A program made the translations under genes and the position numbers. The notes beneath the pieces are model-generated. The model had not been told where the DNA came from, ran no database searches, and saw only the letters and a program-made list of their open reading frames with translations. DNA of 47,428 bases from Vitreoscilla sp. (GTDB taxonomy: Bacteria; Pseudomonadota; Gammaproteobacteria; Burkholderiales; Burkholderiaceae_C): positions 1 to 47,428 of the forward strand of contig JADMKA010000003.1 of NCBI GenBank assembly GCA_018780145.1, in the 5' to 3' direction. Below, piece by piece: positions 10,317 to 28,314 of this stretch (positions within the stretch are counted from its first letter, which is position 1; the number at the start of each line of letters is the position of its first letter).

Positions 10317-12953
10317 TCAGACCACCACGTTGACCAGCCGGCCGGGCACCACCACGATCTTCTTCGGTGGCTTGCCCTCGGAGAACTTGATGCAATCCGG
10401 GTGGGCCAGGGCGGCGGCCTCGATGGCCGCCTTGTCGGCCGCAGCCGGCACCTTGATCGCGCCGCGCAGCTTGCCGTTGACCTGCAGCACCAGCTCGATC
10501 TCGTCTTGCTGCAGCGCGGCCTCGTCGACGGCCGGCCAGGGGGCGTCCAGCAGTTCGCCCTGGGTGGCGGCGAAGCCCAGTTCGCCCCACAGCGCGTGGG
10601 TGATGTGCGGGCAGGCCGGGTAGAGCATGCGCAGCAGCACCGACAGGCCTTCGCGCAGCACGCCGGGATCGCCCGCGCCGTCGCGGCTGGCGTCCTCCAG
10701 CGCGTTCAGCAGCTTCATCGCGCCGGAGATCACGGTGTTGTATTGCAGGCGCTCGAAGTCGTGGCTGACCTGCTTGAGCACGAGGTGGATCTCGCGCCGC
10801 GTCGCCCTGGCGCTGTCGGTGGCGCCAGGCGTGCTCGCCGCGAGCACGCCGGCCTGGTGCCGCGCCGCGAAGGCCCACAGGCGGCGCAGGTAGCGGTGCG
10901 CGCCTTCGACACCGGCGTCGGACCACGCCGCGCTGTCCTGCGGCGGGCCGGCGAACATGGTGAACATGCGCGCGGTGTCGGCGCCGTAGCGCGCGATGAT
11001 GTCGCGCGGCTCGACCACGTTGTTCTTCGACTTCGACATCTTCTCGATGCCGCCCAGCGTGACGGGCTGGCCGTCCTCGCGCGCGGTGGCACCGACCGGG
11101 CGACCCTTGTCGTCGTGCCGGATCTCGACCTCGTTCGGGTAGAACCAGCGCTTCTTGCCTGACGCGTCCTCGCGGTAGAAGCACTCGTTGAGCAGCATGC
11201 CCTGGGTGAACAGGCGCGTGAAGGGTTCGTCGAAGTCGACCAGCTTCAGGTCGCGCATGACCTTGGTCCAGAAGCGCGCGTACAGCAGGTGCAGCACGGC
11301 GTGTTCGATGCCGCCGATGTACTGGTCCATCGGCATCCAGTACTTCGTGCCCGCGCCGACCATGGCCTCGTGGTTCGCTGGGTCGCAGTAGCGCATGTAG
11401 TACCAGGCGCTGTCGACGAAGGTGTCCATGGTGTCGGTCTCGCGCCGGGCCGGTTTGGCGCAGCGCGGGCAGGCGACCTTCAGGAAGGCCTCGCACTTGT
11501 TCAGCGGGTTGCCGCTGCCATCGGGGATCAGGTCCTCGGGCAGCACCACCGGCAGGTCCTTCTCCGGCACCGGCACCGCGCCGCAATCGTCGCAATGGAT
11601 GATGGGGATCGGCGTGCCCCAGTAGCGCTGGCGGCTGATGCCCCAGTCGCGCAGGCGCCAGGTGGTCTTCTTCTCGCCCAGGCCCTTGGCGGCAAGCTGC
11701 TCGGCCACCTTGCTCACCGCCGCCTGGTACGCGAGCCCATCGAGCAGGCCCGAGTTCACGCAGACCGCGCGCTGCTTGTCGGCATACCACTCGGCCCAGG
11801 CGTCGGTGGAATAGGTCTCGCCCTCGACCGCGACGACCTGCTGGATGGCCAGGCCGTACTTCTTCGCGAAGGCGAAATCGCGCTCGTCGTGCGCCGGCAC
11901 ACCCATCACCGCGCCATCGCCATAACCCATCAGCACGTAGTTGCCGACCCAGACCTCGACCGGCGCGCCGGTGAGCGGGTGCATCACGACCAGGCCGGTC
12001 GGCCGGCCTTCCTTCTCTCGCAATGCCAGCTCGGCCTCGGTGGTGCCGCCCTTCTTGCATTCCTCGACGAAGGCCGCCAGTTCGGCGTTGCCGCGCGCGG
12101 CATGCTCGGCCAGCGGGTGCTCGGGTGCCACGGCGCAGAAGGTGACGCCCATGATGGTGTCGGCACGCGTGGTGAAGACGTACATGCGCCCGTCACCGAT
12201 CAGCGCGCCCGACGCGTCGCGGATGTCATGCGGGAACGCGAAGCGCACGCCCTCGCTCTTGCCGATCCAGTGTTCCTGCATCAGGCGCACGCGCTCGGGC
12301 CAGCCGGCCAGGAAGTTCGGTGCCGAGGGCTCGGTGACGTTGGCCAGCAGCTCGTCGGCGTACTGGGTGATGGCCAGGTAGTAGCCGGGGATCTCGCGCT
12401 TTTCCACCAGCGCGCCCGAGCGCCAGCCGCGCCCGTCGACCACCTGCTCGTTGGCCAGCACGGTCTGGTCGACCGGGTCCCAGTTGACGACCTGGGTCCT
12501 GCGGTAGGCGATGCCCTTGTCGAGCATCTGCAGGAACATCCACTGGTTCCATTTGTAGTAGCTGGCGTCGCAGGTGGCGACCTCACGGCTCCAGTCGAAG
12601 CCCAGGCCCAGCGGCTGCATCTGCGACTTCATGTCGGCGATGTTCTCGCGCGTCCATTGCGCCGGCGCCACCTTCTTGTCGATGGCGGCGTTCTCGGCCG
12701 GCAGGCCGAAGGCGTCCCAGCCCATGGGCATCAGCACGTTGAAGCCCTTCATGCGCAATTGGCGCGCCATCATGTCGTTGATGGTGTAGTTGCGCACATG
12801 GCCCATGTGCAGCTTGCCCGAGGGGTAGGGCAGCATCGAGCAGGCGTAGAACTTCGGCTTGCCTGCGTCTTCGGAGACGCGGTAGGCGTCGGTGGCGTTC
12901 CAGTGGGCCTGGGCTGCGCTCTCGACCTCGGCGGGGACGTATTTTTCGTTCAT
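10317..12953 (-). CDS. leuS: Leucyl-tRNA synthetase
   Basis: Charges tRNA-Leu with leucine in the cytosol. 878 aa, normal length for a bacterial class Ia enzyme with an inserted editing domain. The HIGH-type motif is HMGH (49-52) and the KMSKS loop is at 638-642 (followed by KNNVVEP). The start ATG at 12953 gives the standard N-terminus [18 protein letters not shown]. It heads the leuS-lptE-holA run. A perfect 11-bp inverted repeat lies 27-70 bases upstream, between this gene and exbD. Confidence 0.99.
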
Positions 12954-19639: not shown

Positions 19640-20101
19640 ATGAACACATTGCTCGCCGCCGGTCTCTTTGCCGCCTGCGCGGCTGCCAGCTCTGCGGCGC
19701 TGGCCCAGTTCACCAAGGTGCCGATGCCGCTGCGCGCAGAAAGCCCGGGCGTGTCCCAGGCGCAAACCGAGCAGGCCTACCGGCGCGATGCGGCGCAGCG
19801 CGTCTACGCTGCGTTTCCGGCGCACATCCACAAGGGCAAGTTGCCGCCGCTGATGTACGCCATCGCGATCACGGAGACCGATGTGGATGCCACCGGGCAG
19901 ATCACCGATGTGCGTCTCACCCGAGAGCCGGCCGCCGCGAAGGAAGTGGGGCCCTGGGTCGTCGCGTTGTTGCGCCAAATGGTCCGGCTGCCGGCGCCGG
20001 CCCAGATGGAGCGCGCCACCTACAAGGACATCTGGCTGGTCGACAAGAGCGGCAAGTTCCAGCTCGACACCCTCACCGAGGGCCAGCGCAGCGGGCTATG
20101 A
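19640..20101 (+). CDS. Small exported protein, possibly TonB C-terminal-like
   Basis: 153 aa. A clear signal peptide (hydrophobic run with ALAQ cleavage site near residue 22-23) predicts export to the periplasm. The middle part LMYAIAITETDVDATGQITDVRLTR, followed by a PWVVALLRQMVRLPAP helix, resembles the carboxylate-side fold of TonB C-terminal domains, but there is no membrane anchor or proline-rich spacer, so it is not a normal TonB. I do not recognise a named family. A weak hairpin (19539-19551) separates it from corA. The last 6 nt overlap the end of the minus-strand NTF2-like gene. Confidence 0.75.
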   Translation: MNTLLAAGLFAACAAASSAALAQFTKVPMPLRAESPGVSQAQTEQAYRRDAAQRVYAAFPAHIHKGKLPPLMYAIAITETDVDATGQITDVRLTREPAAAKEVGPWVVALLRQMVRLPAPAQMERATYKDIWLVDKSGKFQLDTLTEGQRSGL

Positions 20102-20533
20102 GCCGCTGCCGAGCCGGCGCTTCAACCAGCGCATCAGCCCACCCAGCAGCGGCAGCTTCTCGTACAGCTCTTCGGCGGCATCCCAGTAGTCGCGGTGCAG
20201 GTCGATGCGGCCATCGGGCGCGAAGCGAAGGTGGCTGGCGCCGTGGATGCGCATGGGCCTGCCGCGCAGGCTGAAATCGAAGTCCCAGGTCAGCACGCAG
20301 TCGGGGCCGCTACCGATGGCCTCGCGCACGCTGAATCGCGGCTCGCCCAGGCTGTCGAACATGTGGGCAAAGATGCGGCGGATCGGCTCGACGCCGACCA
20401 CCTCGTTGAAGGGGTCCTTGAAGCGTGCGCCTTCGGTGTAGTAGTGGTCCCAGCGCGCCAGGTCGCCTGGCGCCAGTTGCTCGAACAGGGTGATCACCCG
20501 GTCGATGTGGGGCTCGGGGTGGCGCGCCGTCAT
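20096..20533 (-). CDS. NTF2-like/SnoaL-type protein, last gene of the lipid operon
   Basis: 145 aa, no signal peptide, so cytoplasmic. The pattern HIDRVITLFEQLAPGDLARWDHYY, then ARFKDPFNEVVGVEPIRRIFAHMF and HLRFAPDGRIDLHRDYWDAAEELY, is that of small cone-shaped NTF2-like proteins, which bind small hydrophobic ligands or act as simple isomerases or hydratases. It starts 7 nt after the SDR gene and is the last of eight co-directional genes; a role on a modified lipid or its product is inferred from that. Confidence 0.85.
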   Translation of the reverse strand: MTARHPEPHIDRVITLFEQLAPGDLARWDHYYTEGARFKDPFNEVVGVEPIRRIFAHMFDSLGEPRFSVREAIGSGPDCVLTWDFDFSLRGRPMRIHGASHLRFAPDGRIDLHRDYWDAAEELYEKLPLLGGLMRWLKRRLGSGS

Positions 20534-20540
20534 CGCTGGC

Positions 20541-21326
20541 TCACAACCCGGTGGCGCGGCGCACCACCGATTCGTACAGGCCCATGGGCAGGCAGCTCAG
20601 GGCTTTCAGCCACAGCGTGAAACGGCGTGGGAAGTGCAGCTCGAAATCGCCGCGGGCCCAGCCGCGCAGCATGGCCTCGGCGGCCTGCGCCGGAGCGATC
20701 AGGCCCGGCATGCGGAAGTCATTGCCGGCCGTCAGCGGCGTCGCGACGAAACCCGGGTTGACCACCGAGATCCCCACGCCCAACGGCGCCAGATCCAGGT
20801 GCAGCGACTGGGCCAGGTGGATCAGGGCGGCCTTGGTGGGCCCGTAGGCCAGCGAATTGGGCAGGCCACGGTAGCCGGCCACGCTGGCCACCAGGCTCAG
20901 GTGGGCCGGCTGGCCGGAGGCGGCCTGGGCGCGCAGGGTGGGCAGCACCGCTCCCACCACATGCAGCGCGCCGCCCACGTTGACCTGCTGGTGGTGCAAC
21001 ATCACGTCGAGATCGAACTCGGTGGCGCGCATCGGCTGGTAGATGCCGGCACAGTAAAGCACCAGGTCGAGCCGGCCGTGGCGCGCCAGCAGGGCGTCGG
21101 CGGCCGCCTGCACCGCGGCGCGGTCGGTCGCATCCAGCGGCAGCGCCTCGCTGCCAGGGTGGGTGGCAGCGATTGCGTTCAGGCCGGCGGCGCCGCGCGC
21201 CGAGACGATCACCGTCGCGCCCTGGGCATGCAACGCTTCGGCGAGCGCCCGGCCGATCCCGGTGGAGGCGCCGACCAGCCAGGCGACGCGCCCGCGCCAT
21301 TCGGTGATCGGGGGATTCAGCGGCAT
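20541..21326 (-). CDS. Short-chain dehydrogenase/reductase
   Basis: 261 aa cytosolic NAD(P)-dependent oxidoreductase. The nucleotide loop is GASTGIG (19-25), CAGIY is near 92-96, and the catalytic Ser148, Tyr161 and Lys165 are in ASVAG and YGPTK. PGFVATPLT follows. The C-terminal region (PRRFTLWLKALSCLPMGLYESV) is amphipathic and could bind membrane. The gene set around it (Cfa-type methyltransferase, FAD oxidoreductase, DUF1365) suggests a lipid substrate. It starts 7 nt after the DUF3833 gene. Confidence 0.93.
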   Translation of the reverse strand: MPLNPPITEWRGRVAWLVGASTGIGRALAEALHAQGATVIVSARGAAGLNAIAATHPGSEALPLDATDRAAVQAAADALLARHGRLDLVLYCAGIYQPMRATEFDLDVMLHHQQVNVGGALHVVGAVLPTLRAQAASGQPAHLSLVASVAGYRGLPNSLAYGPTKAALIHLAQSLHLDLAPLGVGISVVNPGFVATPLTAGNDFRMPGLIAPAQAAEAMLRGWARGDFELHFPRRFTLWLKALSCLPMGLYESVVRRATGL

Positions 21327-21333
21327 GGTGGTG

Positions 21334-21876
21334 TCACGGTTTGTAGAACGAGAGTGTCACCTCGCCCAGGCGGATGCCGAACTTGCTCATCACGGCCTTG
21401 TTCAGCATGACCTTGTCGTCCATCAGGTACATCCAGTCGTCGAACTGCACCTCCCAGACCTGGCCGTCCACCGGCAAGGCCAGGGTGTAGCGCCAGTTGA
21501 GCGCGTTGCCACGGGCCTGGCCGACGGCGCTGCCGACCACGTCGTCGGCACGGCCGGTGTACCGGCCGTCGGCACCGCGCGAGAGCTTCCAGACCCGGCG
21601 CTGCGTGCTGCCGTCGCTGTAGCGGAAGTCCTCTTCCAGCACGCCCTCGTCGCCTGACCAACGGCCGTTCAGGGCCACCGTGAAGCGCTTGACGACCTTT
21701 CCGGACCGGTCCGTGAACAGCCCATGGGCGGCCATCGGCCCGTTGAAGTACTGGCGCAGGTCCAGCACCGGCGTGTCATTGGCGTAGTCGGCCGGGGTCG
21801 GGCCGGCACAGCCCGACAGGGCGGTGCCGACAACCAGGGCCGCCATGGCGGCCCAACGTGCGGGCAGGGAGGTCAT
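21334..21876 (-). CDS. DUF3833-family lipoprotein
   Basis: 180 aa with a lipobox ending TALSGC (Cys23), so a predicted envelope lipoprotein. The body reads LRQYFNGPMAAHGLFTDRSG, VLEEDFRYSDGSTQRRVW and ALNWRYTLALPV, as in DUF3833. The lipocalin-like beta pattern would suit carrying a lipid, but the function is not known. It overlaps the MFS gene by 4 nt and is regularly seen beside cfa/DUF1365 genes in proteobacteria. Confidence 0.88.
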   Translation of the reverse strand: MTSLPARWAAMAALVVGTALSGCAGPTPADYANDTPVLDLRQYFNGPMAAHGLFTDRSGKVVKRFTVALNGRWSGDEGVLEEDFRYSDGSTQRRVWKLSRGADGRYTGRADDVVGSAVGQARGNALNWRYTLALPVDGQVWEVQFDDWMYLMDDKVMLNKAVMSKFGIRLGEVTLSFYKP

Positions 21877-23135
21877 CGTGGGTGTTCCTTTCGAATCCAC
21901 AGGCGCCACAGGGCCAGCAGGGCCAGGGCCTTCAGGGCGCAGGGCAGCGCGGCGTAGACCAGGGACAGGGCCAGGCCGCCGCTGCCGCCGGTGTGCCCGG
22001 GCTGGTAGCCCAGGGCCTGCAGCAGCGGCAGGGCCAGGCCGGCGGCGAGCGCGAGGTTGAGCTTGGTGGCGGCGTTCCACCAGCCGAAGGCGACCCCTTC
22101 GTCCTGCGCCGGGCTGTCGCGCAGCAGCCCGGCGAGCAGGGCCGGTGGCACGCACAGGTCAGCCCCGAGCGCGGCGCCGCTGGCCACGCAGACGGCGGCA
22201 AACCACAGCCCGTCGCCGGGCCCGAGGGCCACCGCGCCGACGAAGGCCAGGATCGACAGCGCCATGCCGAGCGCCCAGCCGGGTGCCAACCCGATGCGGG
22301 CCACAACCCGCACCCACAGCGGCAGCGACAGCGCCGCCGCGGCGAAGTACAGGCCGAGCAGGACGGGTTCGCCCTCGGGCCATTGCAGCCGGTCGCGGAT
22401 GAAGAACAGCACCAGCGTGGCGGGCAGCGCGCTGGCCACCCCGTTGAGCAGGTAGACGCCGAGCAGCCGCCGGAAACGCGGCTCGCGCCAGGGTGCCCAC
22501 GGGTGCGATGGCGGCGTGTTCGAGCGCGCCGGCGGCGGCGACGGTGCGGCCGCCCACCCCAGCAGGCCGGCCACCAGCGCGGCGGCCAGGACCAGGCTGG
22601 CCACCTGAAGCCCCAGCGTGCCCGGCAGCACGCTGGCCACGATCACCCCGACCAGGGCCGCGCCTTCTCGCCAGGACACGACCCGGGCGCGTTGCGCTGC
22701 ATCACCGCCCAGGCGAGCGCCCCAGGCATGGTGCAGGACCGACAGCCCGCTGTAGGCCGCGTAGCAACCCACCAGGGCAGCCCCGCACCAAACCAACAAG
22801 GCGGTCTGGCCGCTCACGGCGGGGAAGAACAGGGCCTGGAAGGCGAGGGCCAGCAGCCCGGCGGCCAAGCCGGCGGCCAGCAGCCTGGCGCGCCGCGGCG
22901 CGCCCAGCAGGCGGTCCACGCCCAGTCCGATGAGCGGGTCGGCCACGGCGTCCGCGGCGCGCACCGCCAGCAGCAGCAGGCCCAGGCTGGCCAGCGGCAC
23001 GCCGAACTCGCTGGCGTAGTGGTGGGGCAGCACCACATACAGCGGCAGCGCGACAAACGCCAGAGGCAACCCCATCAGCCCGTAAGCCAGCCCCTGCGGC
23101 GGGGTCAACCCGGCCGCGTGTCCGGCTGCGGTCAT
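21873..23135 (-). CDS. MFS transporter of the GPH (sugar-cation symporter-like) type
   Basis: 420 aa inner-membrane protein with about 12 hydrophobic segments. Near residue 60 DAVADPLIGLGVDRL, a GPH/MelB-like cation-site segment, is present, and the loop after it (RLLGAPRRARLLAAGL) replaces the usual MFS motif. Substrate unknown. Its presence in a lipid operon, together with a lipoprotein and an exported protein, suggests movement of a lipid or precursor, but other roles are possible. It overlaps the genes on both sides by 4 nt. Confidence 0.9.
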   Translation of the reverse strand: MTAAGHAAGLTPPQGLAYGLMGLPLAFVALPLYVVLPHHYASEFGVPLASLGLLLLAVRAADAVADPLIGLGVDRLLGAPRRARLLAAGLAAGLLALAFQALFFPAVSGQTALLVWCGAALVGCYAAYSGLSVLHHAWGARLGGDAAQRARVVSWREGAALVGVIVASVLPGTLGLQVASLVLAAALVAGLLGWAAAPSPPPARSNTPPSHPWAPWREPRFRRLLGVYLLNGVASALPATLVLFFIRDRLQWPEGEPVLLGLYFAAAALSLPLWVRVVARIGLAPGWALGMALSILAFVGAVALGPGDGLWFAAVCVASGAALGADLCVPPALLAGLLRDSPAQDEGVAFGWWNAATKLNLALAAGLALPLLQALGYQPGHTGGSGGLALSLVYAALPCALKALALLALWRLWIRKEHPR

Positions 23136-23680
23136 GGCGCCAGGCCCAGCAACTGGCGGCGCAACTCGGGTTCGGAGGTCCAGGGGGCCAGCCAGATGCC
23201 GAAGAAGAGGCTGGCAAAGCGTGCGTCACGAACCTCGCCGGCGAGCCGGCCGTTGACATGGAAGCGCGCCGCGGCACCCGGCACCTGTGCGCCGGTGATG
23301 CGGTGGCCGGCCTCGACATCCGGAAACAGAGCCCGCATGGCGGCCAGCCAGCGCTTGGCGTCGGCCTCGGCCATCGGCCCCGCGCGGCGCATCTCGGTCA
23401 GTGAGCGTTCGGCGATGCGCGGGCCGCTGAGGGCCCGGGCGTATTCGATCTCCAGTGCCAGCGGCGAACGGTCCAGGGCGCCGGCCGGCACGGGCTCGGG
23501 GGCCCACAGACGGATGTCGTAGATCGCCAGGCCCATGAAGCGCAGCCGGCCCTCGCCCTGCTTGACGATGGGACCGGCCTGCGGCCACTCGGCGCGCAGC
23601 TCTGGAGGTGGGGCCGCCTGCGCACGCACCTGCGCCGCCCAGCCCAGCACGGGCAGCGCGAGGCAGCTGCGGCGCCTCAT
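23132..23680 (-). CDS. Chalcone-isomerase-like exported protein
   Basis: 182 aa with a short twin-basic signal peptide (MRRRSCLALPVLGWAAQVRAQA). The mature part has GEGRLRFMGLAIYDIRLWAP and ALEIEYARALSG, ending with FFGIWLAPWTSEPELRRQLLG. This is the bacterial chalcone-isomerase-like family, which lacks the plant flavanone active site and probably binds fatty acids. Overlaps of 4 nt on both sides (cfa-type gene upstream, MFS downstream) bind it into the operon. A fatty-acid-binding role in the periplasm is inferred. Confidence 0.87.
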   Translation of the reverse strand: MRRRSCLALPVLGWAAQVRAQAAPPPELRAEWPQAGPIVKQGEGRLRFMGLAIYDIRLWAPEPVPAGALDRSPLALEIEYARALSGPRIAERSLTEMRRAGPMAEADAKRWLAAMRALFPDVEAGHRITGAQVPGAAARFHVNGRLAGEVRDARFASLFFGIWLAPWTSEPELRRQLLGLAP

Positions 23681-24900
23681 TCGCGCTGCAGCGTGAACTG
23701 CATGACGCTGGTGCTGCCGGCGTCGAAGGCGGCCTCGCAATAGGCCAGGTAGAACTCCCACAGACGCATGAAGCGCTCGTCGTAGCCCTGCTCGCGCACG
23801 CGGGCCTCGTGGGCCAAGAAGTCCTGCCGCCAGCGGCGCAGCGTCTCGGCGTAGTCGGCGCCGAAATCCAGCTCGGCGACCACCGTCAGGCCCGCCTGCG
23901 CGGCGGCGGCGCGGAAGGCGCTCGGGCTGGGCAGCAGGCCGCCTGGGAAGATGTACTGCTGGATGAAGTCGGTGCCGCGCACGTAGCGCTCGAACAGGTC
24001 GTCCCGGATGGTGATCGACTGGATGCAGGCGCGGCCGCCGGGCCTGAGCTTGTCGTGCACGCTGCGGAAGAAGGAGGCCCAATAGGCGCGCCCCACGGCC
24101 TCGAACATCTCGATCGAGACGATGCCGTCGAAGCCAGTCTCCGGGATGTCGCGATAGTCCTGCAGGCGCAGCTCGGCCTGCCCCGCCAGGCCCTGCCTGG
24201 CCAGGCGGTCGGTGGCATGGGCCAACTGCTCGTTCGACAAGGTGACGCCGGTGACGTGCAGGCCGTGGTCGCGCGCTGCCAATTCGGCCACGGCGCCCCA
24301 GCCACAGCCGATCTCCAGCAGGCGCTGACCGGGGCGCAACTGGCATTCGTCGATCGCCCGCTGCATCTTGGCCACCTGCGCGCGGGCCAGCGGCTGCGCA
24401 TGGTTGCCGGCAAACCAGGCGCTGGAGTAGTTCATCGTCTCGTCCAGCCAGAGGCGATAGAAGGGGTTGCCCAGGTCGTAGTGGGCCTGGATGTTGCGCC
24501 GGCTGCCATGGCGCGAATTGCGGTTCAGCGCGTGGCGCAGGCGGTACACCAGGGCGCCCCACCAGCTGCCGTGGATGCCGCGCTCCAGCGCCTCCCGGTT
24601 GGCCAGGAACAGGCGCAGCAGCGAGGCCAGGTCCGGCGAGCTCCATTGGCCCTCGACATAGGCCTCGCCGAAGCCGACATCGCCTGATCGCAGCACCGCG
24701 CCGAAGACCGCCCAGCTGGTCAGGCGCAGCCCCGCGTGTGGGGCGTCGCCGGTGCCGAACTGCAGGATCTGGCCGTCCGGGCATTGCAGCGTCAGGGTGC
24801 CGACCCGCAACCGGTGCAGCAGGCCCAGCGCGCTGCGGGCAGCCGCCGAGGCCGCGGGCAGGCTCGCTTCGGTGGGGCGGGCAAGGGTGGACGTGTTCAT
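23677..24900 (-). CDS. cfa: Cyclopropane-fatty-acyl-phospholipid synthase-family methyltransferase
   Basis: SAM-dependent enzyme acting on double bonds of membrane phospholipid acyl chains. 407 aa from the ATG at 24900. The SAM site is LEIGCGWG (195-202); NIQAHYDLGNPFYRLWLD (136-153) is also conserved. By alignment from memory to E. coli Cfa, the bicarbonate ligands Glu267, Ile296 and Tyr350 are present, but the Cys139 position is Ser160 (YSSAW) and the His266 position is Gln294 (IQSITI). It may therefore methylate without ring closure or make another product. Overlaps DUF1365 by 4 nt and the next gene by 4 nt. The frame is open upstream to 24993, an unlikely start. Confidence 0.93.
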   Translation of the reverse strand: MNTSTLARPTEASLPAASAAARSALGLLHRLRVGTLTLQCPDGQILQFGTGDAPHAGLRLTSWAVFGAVLRSGDVGFGEAYVEGQWSSPDLASLLRLFLANREALERGIHGSWWGALVYRLRHALNRNSRHGSRRNIQAHYDLGNPFYRLWLDETMNYSSAWFAGNHAQPLARAQVAKMQRAIDECQLRPGQRLLEIGCGWGAVAELAARDHGLHVTGVTLSNEQLAHATDRLARQGLAGQAELRLQDYRDIPETGFDGIVSIEMFEAVGRAYWASFFRSVHDKLRPGGRACIQSITIRDDLFERYVRGTDFIQQYIFPGGLLPSPSAFRAAAAQAGLTVVAELDFGADYAETLRRWRQDFLAHEARVREQGYDERFMRLWEFYLAYCEAAFDAGSTSVMQFTLQRE

Positions 24901-25697
24901 GGGTTCACGGGGCCAGCGGTGGGGTGCGGGGGCGAGCTCACCGCCTGACGGGGCGGCTCGGGCTTGCGGAAGAACGGAACGCCTTGCCACCACAGGCGCA
25001 GCGCCTGCCAGTGGATCCGGGCGACGACGCCCAGGCTCATCAGCGGCATGCGCAGCACGGCGCCGCGAAGGCTGGCCGAGTCCAGCGGCACCAACCGGCC
25101 GGACACGCTGGTCAGCAGCAGCGGGCCGGCCTCGTCGTCGTGCTCGATGCGGGCGACGGTGCGCAGCGGCTGCCCGCCGTCGCCCAGGGTGCGCATGAAG
25201 CGGAACCGGTAGCGCCCCGCCGCGCGACAGAACGGCGACACATGGAAGACCTTGCGGGCCTGCATTTCGCGGCCCCAGGCCAGCTCGGCGCCGGCGAGCA
25301 GGTAGCAGTGGCGCTCACCGAAGGTGTTGTTGACCTCCACCAGCACGGCCGCGAGCGAGTTGTCCTCGCGGTGGGCGTACCAGAAGCTGACCGGCTTGAA
25401 GGCGTGGCCCAGCATGCGCGGCAGGCAGTGCAACCAGACCTCGCCGGTGGCATCGACGATGCCCTCTCGCCGCAGCAGTTCGTCGAGCCAGGCCAGGCTG
25501 TCGTCACGCCCATCACCATGGTCCCGGTCATGAAAACCGACCCACGCGAACCGGTTGCGCCGCAGCGCCGGCTCGGGCCGTTCGCGCAAGTGCCGCATCG
25601 GCAGCAGCAGGAAGAAGGTCGGGTAGGCGAAGGCGTTCCGGACCGGCCGCAGCCGGGCGTGCCGCACTTCACCGATGCCGAGCAGCGCGCCGCTCAT
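24897..25697 (-). CDS. DUF1365-family protein
   Basis: 266 aa, function unknown. Family hallmarks are GEVRHARLRPVRNAFAYPTF at the N-terminus, RMLGHAFKPVSFWYAHRED near 120-138, VEVNNTFGERHCYLL near 145-160, KVFHVSPF near 176 and the C-terminal LGVVARIHWQALRLWWQGVPF. DUF1365 nearly always travels with an FAD amine-oxidase-like protein and a Cfa homologue, exactly the order here. It overlaps the FAD gene by one base (TGATG) and cfa by 4 nt. Confidence 0.92.
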   Translation of the reverse strand: MSGALLGIGEVRHARLRPVRNAFAYPTFFLLLPMRHLRERPEPALRRNRFAWVGFHDRDHGDGRDDSLAWLDELLRREGIVDATGEVWLHCLPRMLGHAFKPVSFWYAHREDNSLAAVLVEVNNTFGERHCYLLAGAELAWGREMQARKVFHVSPFCRAAGRYRFRFMRTLGDGGQPLRTVARIEHDDEAGPLLLTSVSGRLVPLDSASLRGAVLRMPLMSLGVVARIHWQALRLWWQGVPFFRKPEPPRQAVSSPPHPTAGPVNP

Positions 25698-27028
25698 CAG
25701 GCCGCCTGGCGCCAGGCCGAATCCACCGACCAGCGGGCCTTCAGCGCGTCGACCACCGCCAAGCCCGAGGCCAGGCCGTCTTCGTGGAAGCCATAACGTG
25801 TCCAGGCGCCGCAGAACCACACATGGCCACGCCCCTGCAGCGACGGCAGGCGGCGCTGTGCGGCAACCGCGGCGCGATCGAACACCGGGTGGGCGTAGTC
25901 GAACTCTCCCTGAACCGTGCAGGGGTGCGGTTCGCGGATCGGGTTCAGCGACACGATCACCGGGCGTGCCCAGGGCAGCGGCTGCAGCTTGTTGAGCAGG
26001 TAGTGCAGGCAGACCTCGCTGGCGTCGGTGGCGGCGGGCCGGGCACCTTCGTAGTTCCAGGCGGCCCAGGCCCGCTGGCGCCGGGGCAGCAGGCTGGCGT
26101 CGGTGTGCAGGACGGCGCGGTTGGGTTGCGTCCGGATGGCGCCCAACACCGCGCGCTCGTCGGCCGAGGCATCGGCCAGCAGGGCCAGGCTTTGCGGTGC
26201 ATGGCAGGCCAGCACCACCTCGTCGAAGCGTTCGCTGCCGTGGTCGGTGTCGACCCAGACGCCAGCGGTGCCGCCGTCCGCGCCGGGCGGCTGGCGGCGC
26301 ACCGCGCGCACCGGGTGGTTGCGGCGGGCGTCGGGCAGTTGCGACACCAGCTTGTCCACGTAGTGGCGTGAACCGCCCTGCACGGTGAACCAGCGCGGCC
26401 GGTCGTTGACCTGCAGTAGGCCGTGATTGTGGCAAAAGCGGATCAGCGTGCCGACCGGAAAGCGCAGCATCTGCGCCGTGGGGCAGGACCAGATACAGCC
26501 GATCATCGGCAGGAAGTAGGCGTCCCGGAACATCGGGCCGAAGCGGTGCTCGGCGAGGAAATCGCCCACCGGCTGGGACAGGACCGCGTCGTCGCCCCGC
26601 TCCGCCAGCGCTGTCGCCAGGCGGTTGAAGCGCAGGATGTCGGCCAGCATGCCCCAGAAGCGCGGTGAGACGAGGTTGCGGCGTTGCGCGAACACCGAGC
26701 CCAGGTCAGCGCCACTCCACTCCAGGCCCAACCGTGGCGCCTGGACGGAGAACGACATGTCCGATGCGGCGGTGTCCACGCCCAGCCGCTCGAACAGGCC
26801 GATCAGCTTGGGGTAGGTGCGTTCGTTGTAGACCAGGAAGCCGGTGTCGACGCCAAAGGTCTCGCCATCCAGCGTGAGATCCACCGTGTGGGCGTGGCCG
26901 CCGAAGCGGGCATCGGACTCGAACAGCGTGACCTGGGTGCCCGCCGTGTCATGTGCCAGGTGCCATGCCGCCGAGAGCCCGGCCACCCCGGAGCCGACGA
27001 CGGCCACCCGGCGGGGGGTGGCGCTCAC
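25697..27028 (-). CDS. FAD-dependent amine-oxidase-like oxidoreductase, first gene of the lipid operon
   Basis: 443 aa flavoprotein. The GTG at 27028 is preferred because GAGGGG lies 7 nt upstream; a TTG at 27055 is less likely. The FAD-binding loop is VVGSGVAGLSAAWHL near 8-22, with the E-R-FGGHAH pattern near 39-47 and DTGFLVYNERTYPKL near 61. The C-terminal WFCGAWTRYGFHEDGLASG closes the flavin site. This family is annotated as a cyclopropane/fatty-acid-associated oxidoreductase; in Rhodobacter a homologous gene set is tied to singlet oxygen and to methylated or furan fatty acids. Substrate here is inferred, not shown. Confidence 0.92.
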   Translation of the reverse strand: MSATPRRVAVVGSGVAGLSAAWHLAHDTAGTQVTLFESDARFGGHAHTVDLTLDGETFGVDTGFLVYNERTYPKLIGLFERLGVDTAASDMSFSVQAPRLGLEWSGADLGSVFAQRRNLVSPRFWGMLADILRFNRLATALAERGDDAVLSQPVGDFLAEHRFGPMFRDAYFLPMIGCIWSCPTAQMLRFPVGTLIRFCHNHGLLQVNDRPRWFTVQGGSRHYVDKLVSQLPDARRNHPVRAVRRQPPGADGGTAGVWVDTDHGSERFDEVVLACHAPQSLALLADASADERAVLGAIRTQPNRAVLHTDASLLPRRQRAWAAWNYEGARPAATDASEVCLHYLLNKLQPLPWARPVIVSLNPIREPHPCTVQGEFDYAHPVFDRAAVAAQRRLPSLQGRGHVWFCGAWTRYGFHEDGLASGLAVVDALKARWSVDSAWRQAA

Positions 27029-27273
27029 TGGCCGCCCCTCGCGACGAGAAGACAAGGCAGCCGCGCAGCACCCGGGAACGAAGGAGGGAGGGAGGGAGGA
27101 GGAGAGGCGCTCCCGGGCGACATCCAGACGGGCTGGAAGGCTGCGCGGCTGAAAGAATGCGGACGCTCATGGACAGAGCCTGCTCGTGCCGGAAAGTTCC
27201 GCGGCGCCGGTTGGCGCCGGGCGCCACCAAAGGGTGGATGTGGAGCAGGCGAAAGGGTGGAAGGCCTCATGAT

Positions 27274-27286
27274 TTGTCCTGGACAA
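27274..27286. promoter_or_regulatory. Candidate LitR operator 1
   Basis: TTGTCC-T-GGACAA, a perfect 6-bp inverted repeat around one base. Matches site 2 at 10 of 13 positions. Lies about 246 nt upstream of the first operon gene, in the part facing the leftward transcript. Confidence 0.6.
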
Positions 27287-27335
27287 GATGGCGGCAGAAA
27301 CTGATGATGCGCTAGCTTCAGCAAAATAGGAAGTT

Positions 27336-27348
27336 TTGTCTAGGACAT
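27336..27348. promoter_or_regulatory. Candidate LitR operator 2, overlapping the litR promoter
   Basis: TTGTCT-A-GGACAT. Centre-to-centre distance to site 1 is 62 bp, about six helical turns, so both face the same side. TTGTCT (27336-27341) followed after 17 nt by TATCCA (27359-27364) would make it the litR -35, allowing autorepression. Confidence 0.55.
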
Positions 27349-27366
27349 AACTATACAGTATCCAAA

Positions 27367-28314
27367 GTGACTGAGCGGTTCAAAATGTGGAACATTGCCG
27401 AAGTCGAGCGCCACACCGGCCTGGGCAAGGACACGCTGCGCGTCTGGGAGCGGCGCTACGGCTTTCCTTCGCCCGGCCGGGATGAGCAGGGCCAGCGCGT
27501 CTATACGCAGCCCGAGGTCGATCGGTTGCGGGTGCTTGCCAGCCTGCTGAGCGCCGGTCACCGGCCCGGCCGGGTGGTCGGCCTGGAGCACGGTGCCTTG
27601 CTGGCCCTGCTGGACCGCGACGGCGCGGGCGCCGCTTCGTCGACCGAGCCGCCGAGCACCCACCAGCCGCTGATCGACGCCGCCTTCGAGGCAACCTGCC
27701 GTTACGACGGCCAGGCCTTGCGTCGACACCTGCAGCAAGCGCTGCCACGTCTGGGCCTGGCCACGTCGGTGGTCGAGGTGGTGGCGCCCTTGACCACGCG
27801 CGTGGGCCGCGCCTGGATGACCGGCCAGCTTCGGGTCGCCGGCGAGCACCTGTACACCGAGGTGGTGCACGGCGTGCTGCGGCAGGCGCTGCTGGCCCTT
27901 CCCGAGCCGGAGGCCGGGAGTGCCCGGCGGGTGCTGTTGACCACCTTGCCGGGCGAACCGCACGGGCTGGGTCTGCTGATGGCCGAGGCGATGTGCGCGC
28001 TGGAGGGGGCCGTGTGCGTCAACCTGGGGGTGCAGACGCCGGTGGAAGAGATCGTGGCCGCGGCACTGTGGCACCGCGCCGACGTGGTCGGCCTGAGTGC
28101 CACGGGCGCCTTGCCGACACGCTGGCTGCGCGAGGGGTTGACCCAGCTGCGCGAGCGCCTGCCGGCCTGCACGGCCCTCTGGCTGGGCGGCTCCGCGTCC
28201 GCAGGGCCACGCGGCGTGCGCGGCGTGTTGCGGGTGACGGACTTGAAGGAGATCGGCCCGGCGCTGGGTGCGCTGCTCAGCCCGCCGGCTTCTGTGCTGC
28301 CGCCTTCGCCTTGA
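27367..28314 (+). CDS. litR: LitR/CarH-type MerR regulator with coenzyme-B12 light-sensing domain
   Basis: Transcription regulator, 315 aa. The MerR helix-turn-helix is at about 8-75 (NIAEVERHTGLGKDTLRVWE, then RRYGFPSPGR). The C-terminal half has the two B12-photoreceptor motifs: W-x9-EH (Trp150, Glu160, His161) and E-x-H-x-x-G (Glu197, His199, Gly202 in GEPHGLG), His199 being the expected cobalt ligand. In CarH/LitR, adenosylcobalamin holds the DNA-bound tetramer in the dark; light breaks it and opens the genes. The residue after Trp150 is Met, where the Thermus protein has a His that ligates cobalt after light. Start is unsettled: GTG 27367 (used for numbering) or ATG 27385, which has GAGCGG upstream. 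The last 38 nt overlap the GST gene tail. Confidence 0.9.
   Translation: MTERFKMWNIAEVERHTGLGKDTLRVWERRYGFPSPGRDEQGQRVYTQPEVDRLRVLASLLSAGHRPGRVVGLEHGALLALLDRDGAGAASSTEPPSTHQPLIDAAFEATCRYDGQALRRHLQQALPRLGLATSVVEVVAPLTTRVGRAWMTGQLRVAGEHLYTEVVHGVLRQALLALPEPEAGSARRVLLTTLPGEPHGLGLLMAEAMCALEGAVCVNLGVQTPVEEIVAAALWHRADVVGLSATGALPTRWLREGLTQLRERLPACTALWLGGSASAGPRGVRGVLRVTDLKEIGPALGALLSPPASVLPPSP

Follow-up and report, generated by a model that had tools for sequence, protein, structure and literature searches.

A divergent LitR gene and a conserved inverted repeat suggest light control of a putative furan fatty acid operon in Vitreoscilla sp.

In Rhodobacter sphaeroides, the fatty acyl methylase UfaM, UfaD (RSP1091), and the DUF1365 protein UfaO (RSP1090) act on phospholipids, whose cis-vaccenate chains they convert to a methylated furan fatty acid (FuFA). 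The Rhodopseudomonas palustris genes RPA2571 (UfaD), RPA2570 (UfaO), and RPA2569 (UfaM) are sufficient for FuFA formation, and the furan lipid is lost upon exposure to singlet oxygen and protects cells (PMC7380195). In Pseudomonas, ufaM is induced 25- to 33-fold by light, a response tied to a class II LitR regulator (PMC9758184). Here we describe an eight-gene operon headed by ufaD-, ufaO-, and ufaM-like genes, together with a divergent litR gene, on a contig of Vitreoscilla sp. (GenBank assembly GCA_018780145.1, contig JADMKA010000003.1, positions 1 to 47,428; the whole 47,428-nucleotide stretch analyzed is called the window). We propose that the operon makes FuFAs and is switched by light through LitR acting as an adenosylcobalamin (AdoB12) photoreceptor. 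This proposal builds on the genes present, their arrangement as an operon, the conserved divergence from litR, the cobalamin-binding residues, and an operator that tracks LitR; taken as a regulatory and enzymatic whole and predicted from sequence, we give it a probability of about 0.7.

The eight operon genes all lie on the minus strand, between 27028 and 20096 (Table 1), and successive genes overlap by 1, 4, 4, 4, and 4 nt or are separated by gaps of 7 and 7 nt. Open reading frames (ORFs) and Pfam matches bore out the gene order, coordinates, families, and single direction given by a first-pass annotation of this DNA. That annotation had counted six of the seven junctions as tight; with the starts used here, all seven are. 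Candidate starts for ufaD are GTG 27028, GTG 27007, or TTG 27055, and those for litR are GTG 27367 or ATG 27385, the latter being the likely alternative. As had also been stated, no gene for a photolyase, an extracytoplasmic function (ECF) sigma factor, or ChrR was found by Pfam among the eight operon genes and litR, and the divergent neighbor, with its MerR_1, B12-binding_2, and B12-binding domains, is a predicted B12 photoreceptor gene.

To place this arrangement, we surveyed 200 genomes of the same family as the window genome (5.57 Mb, stated to be 96.5% complete), its own included, and called LitR at E 1e-20 or better. LitR was found in 83 of the 200 genomes and UfaO in at least 154. Among the matches listed, 75 of the 83 LitR genomes also carry UfaO: the two genes lie on different contigs in 8 genomes and share a contig in 67, where they are divergent without exception (67/67), at a distance of 1.4 to 3.5 kb in 66 and of 12 kb in one. 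We read 66 LitR-linked loci, namely the window and 65 relatives, leaving out the genome with the 12-kb distance. These were compared with 43 LitR-free orthologous operons, taken from 63 LitR-free genomes with a UfaO of at least 45% identity, and with 12 ChrR-type loci, taken from 14 UfaO loci below 45% identity. One locus, L100, was grouped as LitR-free despite a weak LitR-like stretch; for the gene-content counts, loci were picked by UfaO, and contig ends cut some of them. The UfaD-UfaO-UfaM trio is present throughout (66/66 LitR, 43/43 LitR-free, and 12/12 ChrR-type loci), and each of the five remaining, accessory genes occurs in 53 to 60 of the 66 LitR loci. None of the five was found in the 12 ChrR-type loci, all of which carry ECF and ChrR genes, compared with 0 of 66 LitR loci, the queries for these two genes being drawn from the ChrR-type loci themselves. 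In a separate contig scan for LitR, which yielded at least 80 loci and overlaps the 66-locus set in part, a divergent ufa operon accompanies LitR in 61 of the 72 loci having at least 3 kb upstream. Because the eight-gene set and its divergent LitR recur across the family, we consider the arrangement to be more than chance. Relatives with the same layout include Rubrivivax gelatinosus (L223), a phototroph, Curvibacter delicatus (L244), Methylibium (L234), and Azoarcus sp. KH32C (L300), where a plasmid repeats the eight-gene order beside a MerR gene. In the operon direction, ufaD is preceded by a glutathione peroxidase gene in 37 of the 66 LitR loci, and none was found in the window. A phylum-wide search found LitR in 9 of 398 genomes, five of them in the window's family, its own included.

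The region between litR and ufaD contains a conserved candidate operator, the inverted repeat TTTGTC-N3-GACAAA. A de novo dyad scan upstream of LitR recovered TTGTC-N3-GACAA in 38 of the 66 loci, whereas the most frequent repeat in every one of five shuffled sets occurred in 2 loci. In the 3 kb upstream of UfaD, an exact copy of the core is present in 40/66 LitR loci, 0/43 LitR-free operons, and 0/12 ChrR-type loci; with one mismatch, these counts become 60/66, 2/43, and 0/12. The contig scan gave a site within one mismatch in 73 of 80 LitR loci, among the loci listed. In the window genome, no exact TTTGTCNNNGACAAA stands among the matches listed, and one mismatch is seen at three of the places listed: the copies at 27273 and 27335 (Table 1) and a site on another contig, C231. 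Counts of exact sites across the 200 genomes are lower bounds, since the listed sites cover 51 of the 63 genomes with a match. Among the matches listed, sites with a YWR center, a center picked after inspection of the LitR loci, occur in at least 31 of 83 LitR genomes versus at least 1 of 117 others, and sites with any center in at least 31 of 83 versus at least 20 of 117. In loci with two copies, a distance of 62 to 65 bp between them is the commonest. Considered up to 110 bp, the distinct spacings cluster around 21, 32, 53, 63, and 73 bp, one case each being seen at 96 and 107 bp, and they keep phase with a 10.5-bp period (simulated P 0.0008, the seven spacing clusters being treated as independent). 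Four longer spacings lay outside the phase test (133, 133, 165, and 174 bp), and those of 133 and 174 bp are out of phase. The only sigma-70-like site found between 18500 and 29500 reads toward litR and overlaps the first operator copy. The Pseudomonas class II operator TGTACA-N12-TGTACA was rejected for the window, where nothing matches it with two or fewer mismatches; at three mismatches there are 17 window matches against a shuffle mean of 6.4, none of them over the two operators and one overlapping the litR start at 27359.

Copies of the operator were also seen beside other genes in relatives. In four LitR-bearing genomes (L198, L200, L201, and L211), they are flanked by a uvrB-like gene on one side and, on the other, by an Rrf2 plus class V aminotransferase pair resembling iscR-iscS, the genes being identified by Pfam in L211 and by BLAST in the others, and in L196, L204, and L209 they adjoin genes for methyl-accepting chemotaxis receptors. 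A wider operator regulon in relatives, taking in uvrB, Rrf2/aminotransferase, chemotaxis receptor, lipocalin, and TerC genes, is a lead only, and Rrf2 proteins might themselves bind LitR-type sites.

The enzymatic half of the proposal concerns the first three genes, which by family and gene order match the furan fatty acid enzymes and are predicted to encode UfaD, UfaO, and UfaM. The flavin adenine dinucleotide (FAD), DUF1365, and CMAS families stand together in the window operon, in the order of R. palustris RPA2571-2570-2569 (PMC7380195). The CMAS protein scores below NCBIfam cut-offs for cyclopropane synthases (e.g., 276.6 versus 600 and 258.1 versus 400 bits). The resemblance to Rhodobacter FuFA genes noted in the first-pass annotation applies to these three genes of the eight; for the other five, we know of no role in FuFA synthesis. 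These five genes, together with an assignment of UfaM, UfaD, and UfaO made by family and order only, leave room for an operon that is under light and LitR control and yields another lipid, for example one with a branched, cyclopropane, or hydroxylated acyl chain, or a surface lipid whose export falls to the MFS and DUF3833 proteins. Deletion of RSP1087, RSP1088, or RSP1089, moreover, leaves FuFA unchanged in R. sphaeroides (PMC7380195). The trio is nevertheless the most constant part of the operon and stands in the order proven in R. palustris, and we regard a different product as unlikely.

Structure models were obtained for two of the operon proteins. UfaO gave a confident AlphaFold model (mean predicted local distance difference test score, pLDDT, 90.4) with no PDB fold match at an E under 0.001, so no cofactor can be named. 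Residues that do not vary across 42 aligned sequences include H13, D59, H130, and H229, and the protein (window 24897-25697) may possess an oxygenase fold not seen before. The DUF3833 model (mean pLDDT 93.0) is a calycin-like beta-barrel, as would suit a lipoprotein that binds lipid; nitrophorins and a fatty-acid-binding-like protein are among its Foldseek matches.

The regulatory half depends on LitR as a photoreceptor. The window LitR aligns with Thermus thermophilus CarH over residues 7-301 (phmmer, E 2.4e-22). CarH residues W131, E141, H142, and H177 (T. thermophilus numbering) correspond to W150, E160, H161, and H199, and the GxxW, EH, GxxH, and GxxxP signatures are all present, including G196, H199, G221, and P225; in CarH, the W, EH, and lower His positions are named as key to AdoB12 binding and the light response (PMC11796333). 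Of 65 aligned family LitRs, the window's included, 63 keep all four residues (W, E, H, and the lower-ligand H), and only 28 retain the GxxH glycine. A cobalamin adenosyltransferase of family PF01923 is encoded in the window genome (E 1.6e-54), so a supply of AdoB12 is possible; the CobA/BtuR family (PF02572) has no match there.

Such a protein could control the operon while sensing mainly B12 supply or the redox state, not light. The conserved B12-binding residues belong to a fold that could report cofactor level, and the window genome has no photosynthetic reaction-centre gene (no PF00124 match; carotenoid genes were not searched for), on which ground a link to photosynthesis was rejected. 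However, the phototroph Rubrivivax gelatinosus has a locus of the same layout. The W, EH, and lower His positions of the CarH light response are all kept (PMC11796333), and Cfa/UfaM-type genes are light-induced in Pseudomonas (PMC9758184) and Vibrio cholerae (PMC5241685). We consider control by cofactor supply or redox improbable.

Under the light-switched FuFA proposal, an oligomer of LitR with AdoB12 would, in the dark, occupy both inverted repeats, which are spaced by about six helical turns, cover the divergent promoters, and repress both litR and the operon. Light would break the Co-C bond, LitR would leave the DNA, and the operon would be transcribed. UfaM would then methylate cis-vaccenoyl phospholipid chains, UfaD would desaturate them, and UfaO would create the furan ring by inserting O2; the resulting lipids would scavenge singlet oxygen. 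The chalcone-isomerase-like, MFS, DUF3833, short-chain dehydrogenase/reductase (SDR), and NTF2-like proteins probably move or handle the modified lipid, which is a guess. We infer the photochemistry, dark repression, enzyme steps, and protective role by analogy with families in print. The first-pass annotation had suggested that light acts by way of B12 to bring about protective lipids; comparison supports this route well through the CarH residues, the divergent linkage, and the LitR-tracking operator, and it remains predicted. More broadly, we give a somewhat better than even chance to a family-wide betaproteobacterial B12 light switch, with furan lipids rather than carotenoids as the main conserved output and with paired inverted repeats at whole helical turns.

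Several results weigh against this interpretation. On a quick UfaD tree, the presence of LitR changes about 25 times, at least six of these changes being forced by well-supported branches, and the operon is retained without LitR in 42 of the 43 loci fetched as LitR-free (the other is L100); light control is therefore not essential to the operon. With the NCBIfam CarH model (TransRegCarH), the window LitR reaches 109.1 bits where the cut-off is 400, which makes it a homologue that falls outside the curated set. Between 18500 and 29500, no sigma-70 promoter was found for the operon itself. Six of the 66 LitR loci have no site within one mismatch, including L035 and L064, the two exceptions to the four-residue conservation. 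Places with two mismatches in the window genome number 51, compared with 39 for a reversed control pattern, among the matches listed, so weaker sites carry no signal. In the contig scan, 11 of 72 LitR loci have no divergent ufaD. In Eleftheria terrae (L299:8403-9879), a fasciclin-domain gene takes the place of the ufa operon as the divergent neighbor of LitR, with two exact operators 62 bp apart, and in Comamonas endophytica (L301) LitR stands between two genes for methyl-accepting chemotaxis receptors, with a BLUF gene near. Finally, mapped CarH operators are tandem 11-bp direct repeats, whereas the site here is an inverted repeat often paired about 63 bp apart (PMC9304148, PMC9758184). The conserved site does not conform to a tandem 11-bp TnnACA direct repeat, direct repeats elsewhere not having been searched for; TnnACA is contained in one half of each window operator copy.

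The operon also occurs with other regulators. Among the 121 UfaD proteins of the quick tree, the 12 linked to ChrR fall in a single clade (97% support in the Shimodaira-Hasegawa-like approximate likelihood ratio test, SH-aLRT), apart from the LitR-linked and LitR-free proteins, and a divergent TetR gene takes the place of LitR in 6 of the 43 LitR-free operons. Given these TetR and ChrR alternatives and the repeated changes in LitR, we conclude that the operon outlives any one regulator and that its control has changed repeatedly. The window genome itself carries an ECF sigma gene and a ChrR-type cupin gene side by side near 80260 of contig C159 (L216), a different contig from the ufa operon, where the pair adjoins an ORF with CxxCH cytochrome motifs recognized by eye. 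An RpoE-type promoter for the operon was rejected on weak evidence, a pattern of this type having no match in the window. Least probable, in our judgment, is mere co-location, with LitR controlling itself and distant genes and the operon driven by another factor such as this distant ECF/ChrR pair: the presence of the pair, the many orthologous operons without LitR, and the failure to find a sigma-70 operon promoter would fit it, but two candidate operators lie between litR and the operon here and in relatives, the RpoE-type pattern is unmatched (a weak point), and the ChrR-type ufa clusters form their separate clade with no accessory genes found.

Some LitR loci of the family depart from the common layout in other ways. 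In genome G051 (L213:6014-9024), LitR is divergent from a glutathione peroxidase gene, beyond which lies a stretch with BLAST matches to photolyase-like proteins and without a Pfam match; this genome has no UfaO among the matches listed. Within the window's genus, the helix-turn-helix and B12 parts of litR in G181 (L091:10248-13133) are separated by an insert of about 2 kb containing a group II intron reverse transcriptase/maturase ORF (10565-12418), and G076 has the operon and no LitR match.

Table 1. Features of the litR-ufa region in window coordinates.
Feature	Position	Strand	Basis or remark
litR, MerR/CarH-type regulator	27367..28314	+	Pfam MerR_1, B12-binding_2, B12-binding, all over Pfam cut-offs
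Candidate operator copy 2, TTTGTCTAGGACATA, upstream of litR	27335..27349		1 mismatch to TTTGTCNNNGACAAA; in register with relatives
Sigma-70-like litR promoter, TGGACA-N17-GATGAT	27280..27308	+	Consensus match, not proof; -35 inside operator copy 1
Candidate operator copy 1, TTTGTCCTGGACAAG	27273..27287		62 bp from copy 2; exact 10-base core TTGTC-N3-GACAA
ufaD-like, FAD-dependent fatty acyl desaturase, first gene	25697..27028	-	Pfam Amino_oxidase / NAD_binding_8
ufaO-like, DUF1365 protein (furan-ring oxygenase family)	24897..25697	-	Pfam DUF1365, E 7e-76
ufaM-like, S-adenosylmethionine-dependent fatty acyl methyltransferase	23677..24900	-	Pfam CMAS, E 3e-83
Chalcone-isomerase-like protein	23132..23680	-	Pfam Chalcone_3, E 6e-9
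Major facilitator superfamily (MFS) transporter, GPH/MFS_2 type	21873..23135	-	Pfam MFS_2, E 1.5e-40
DUF3833 putative lipoprotein	21334..21876	-	Pfam DUF3833, E 5e-71
Short-chain dehydrogenase/reductase	20541..21326	-	Pfam adh_short, E 1.4e-35
SnoaL_2 / NTF2-like protein, last gene	20096..20533	-	Pfam SnoaL_2, E 3.4e-18

If the proposal holds, the locus would represent a third light-to-FuFA circuit beside those of ChrR and of LOV/class II LitR, so that one protective lipid pathway would be wired to light via at least three different sensors. AdoB12 photoreceptors would then control betaproteobacterial membrane chemistry, including in a genome in which no reaction-centre gene was found. The analysis offers a testable operator and named relatives, and suggests an inverted-repeat operator for green-light gene switches. 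The idea of a path from light to lipid is less new than the first-pass annotation implied, because ufaM is already known to be light-induced in Pseudomonas via a B12-independent class II LitR; in the open-licence literature, we found no report of control of ufa genes by an AdoB12-dependent LitR.

Among described systems, the Pseudomonas pmlR/pplR cluster resembles the window in linking a LitR-family MerR gene (pmlR1) to a light-induced operon with an FAD oxidoreductase, UfaM, an SDR, and genes of unknown function. It differs in that class II LitR keeps one of the two B12-binding domains, whereas the window LitR has both, together with the key residues; in P. putida, the same source describes B12 as not needed and PmlR2 as switched by a short LOV protein. 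The Pseudomonas cluster also contains phrB, unlike the window cluster, which has no photolyase gene, and its site is T(G/A)TACA-N12-TGTACA, compared with TTTGTC-N3-GACAAA here (PMC9758184). In V. cholerae (ChrR VC2301, MerR VCA0056, and the CFA synthase VC1122), blue light likewise induces a Cfa-type gene, and ChrR and the MerR-like protein jointly mediate the global blue-light response. The gene for that MerR protein shares an operon with a photolyase gene, and B12 binding, predicted for the window LitR, is not shown for it (PMC5241685). R. sphaeroides RSP1087-1091 and RSP2144 share the UfaD, UfaO, and UfaM families with the window; their FuFA genes answer to an ECF sigma factor and ChrR (singlet oxygen), whereas the regulator linked to the window operon is a predicted AdoB12 photoreceptor (PMC7380195, PMC6852236). 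The ChrR-linked ufa clusters of the window's own family belong to a different lineage from the window operon. With the class I CarH/LitR proteins of Thermus, Bacillus megaterium, and Myxococcus, finally, the window LitR shares its domain order and cobalamin-binding residues; the known CarH targets are mainly carotenoid genes, whereas the linked target here is a lipid operon (PMC9304148, PMC9758184).

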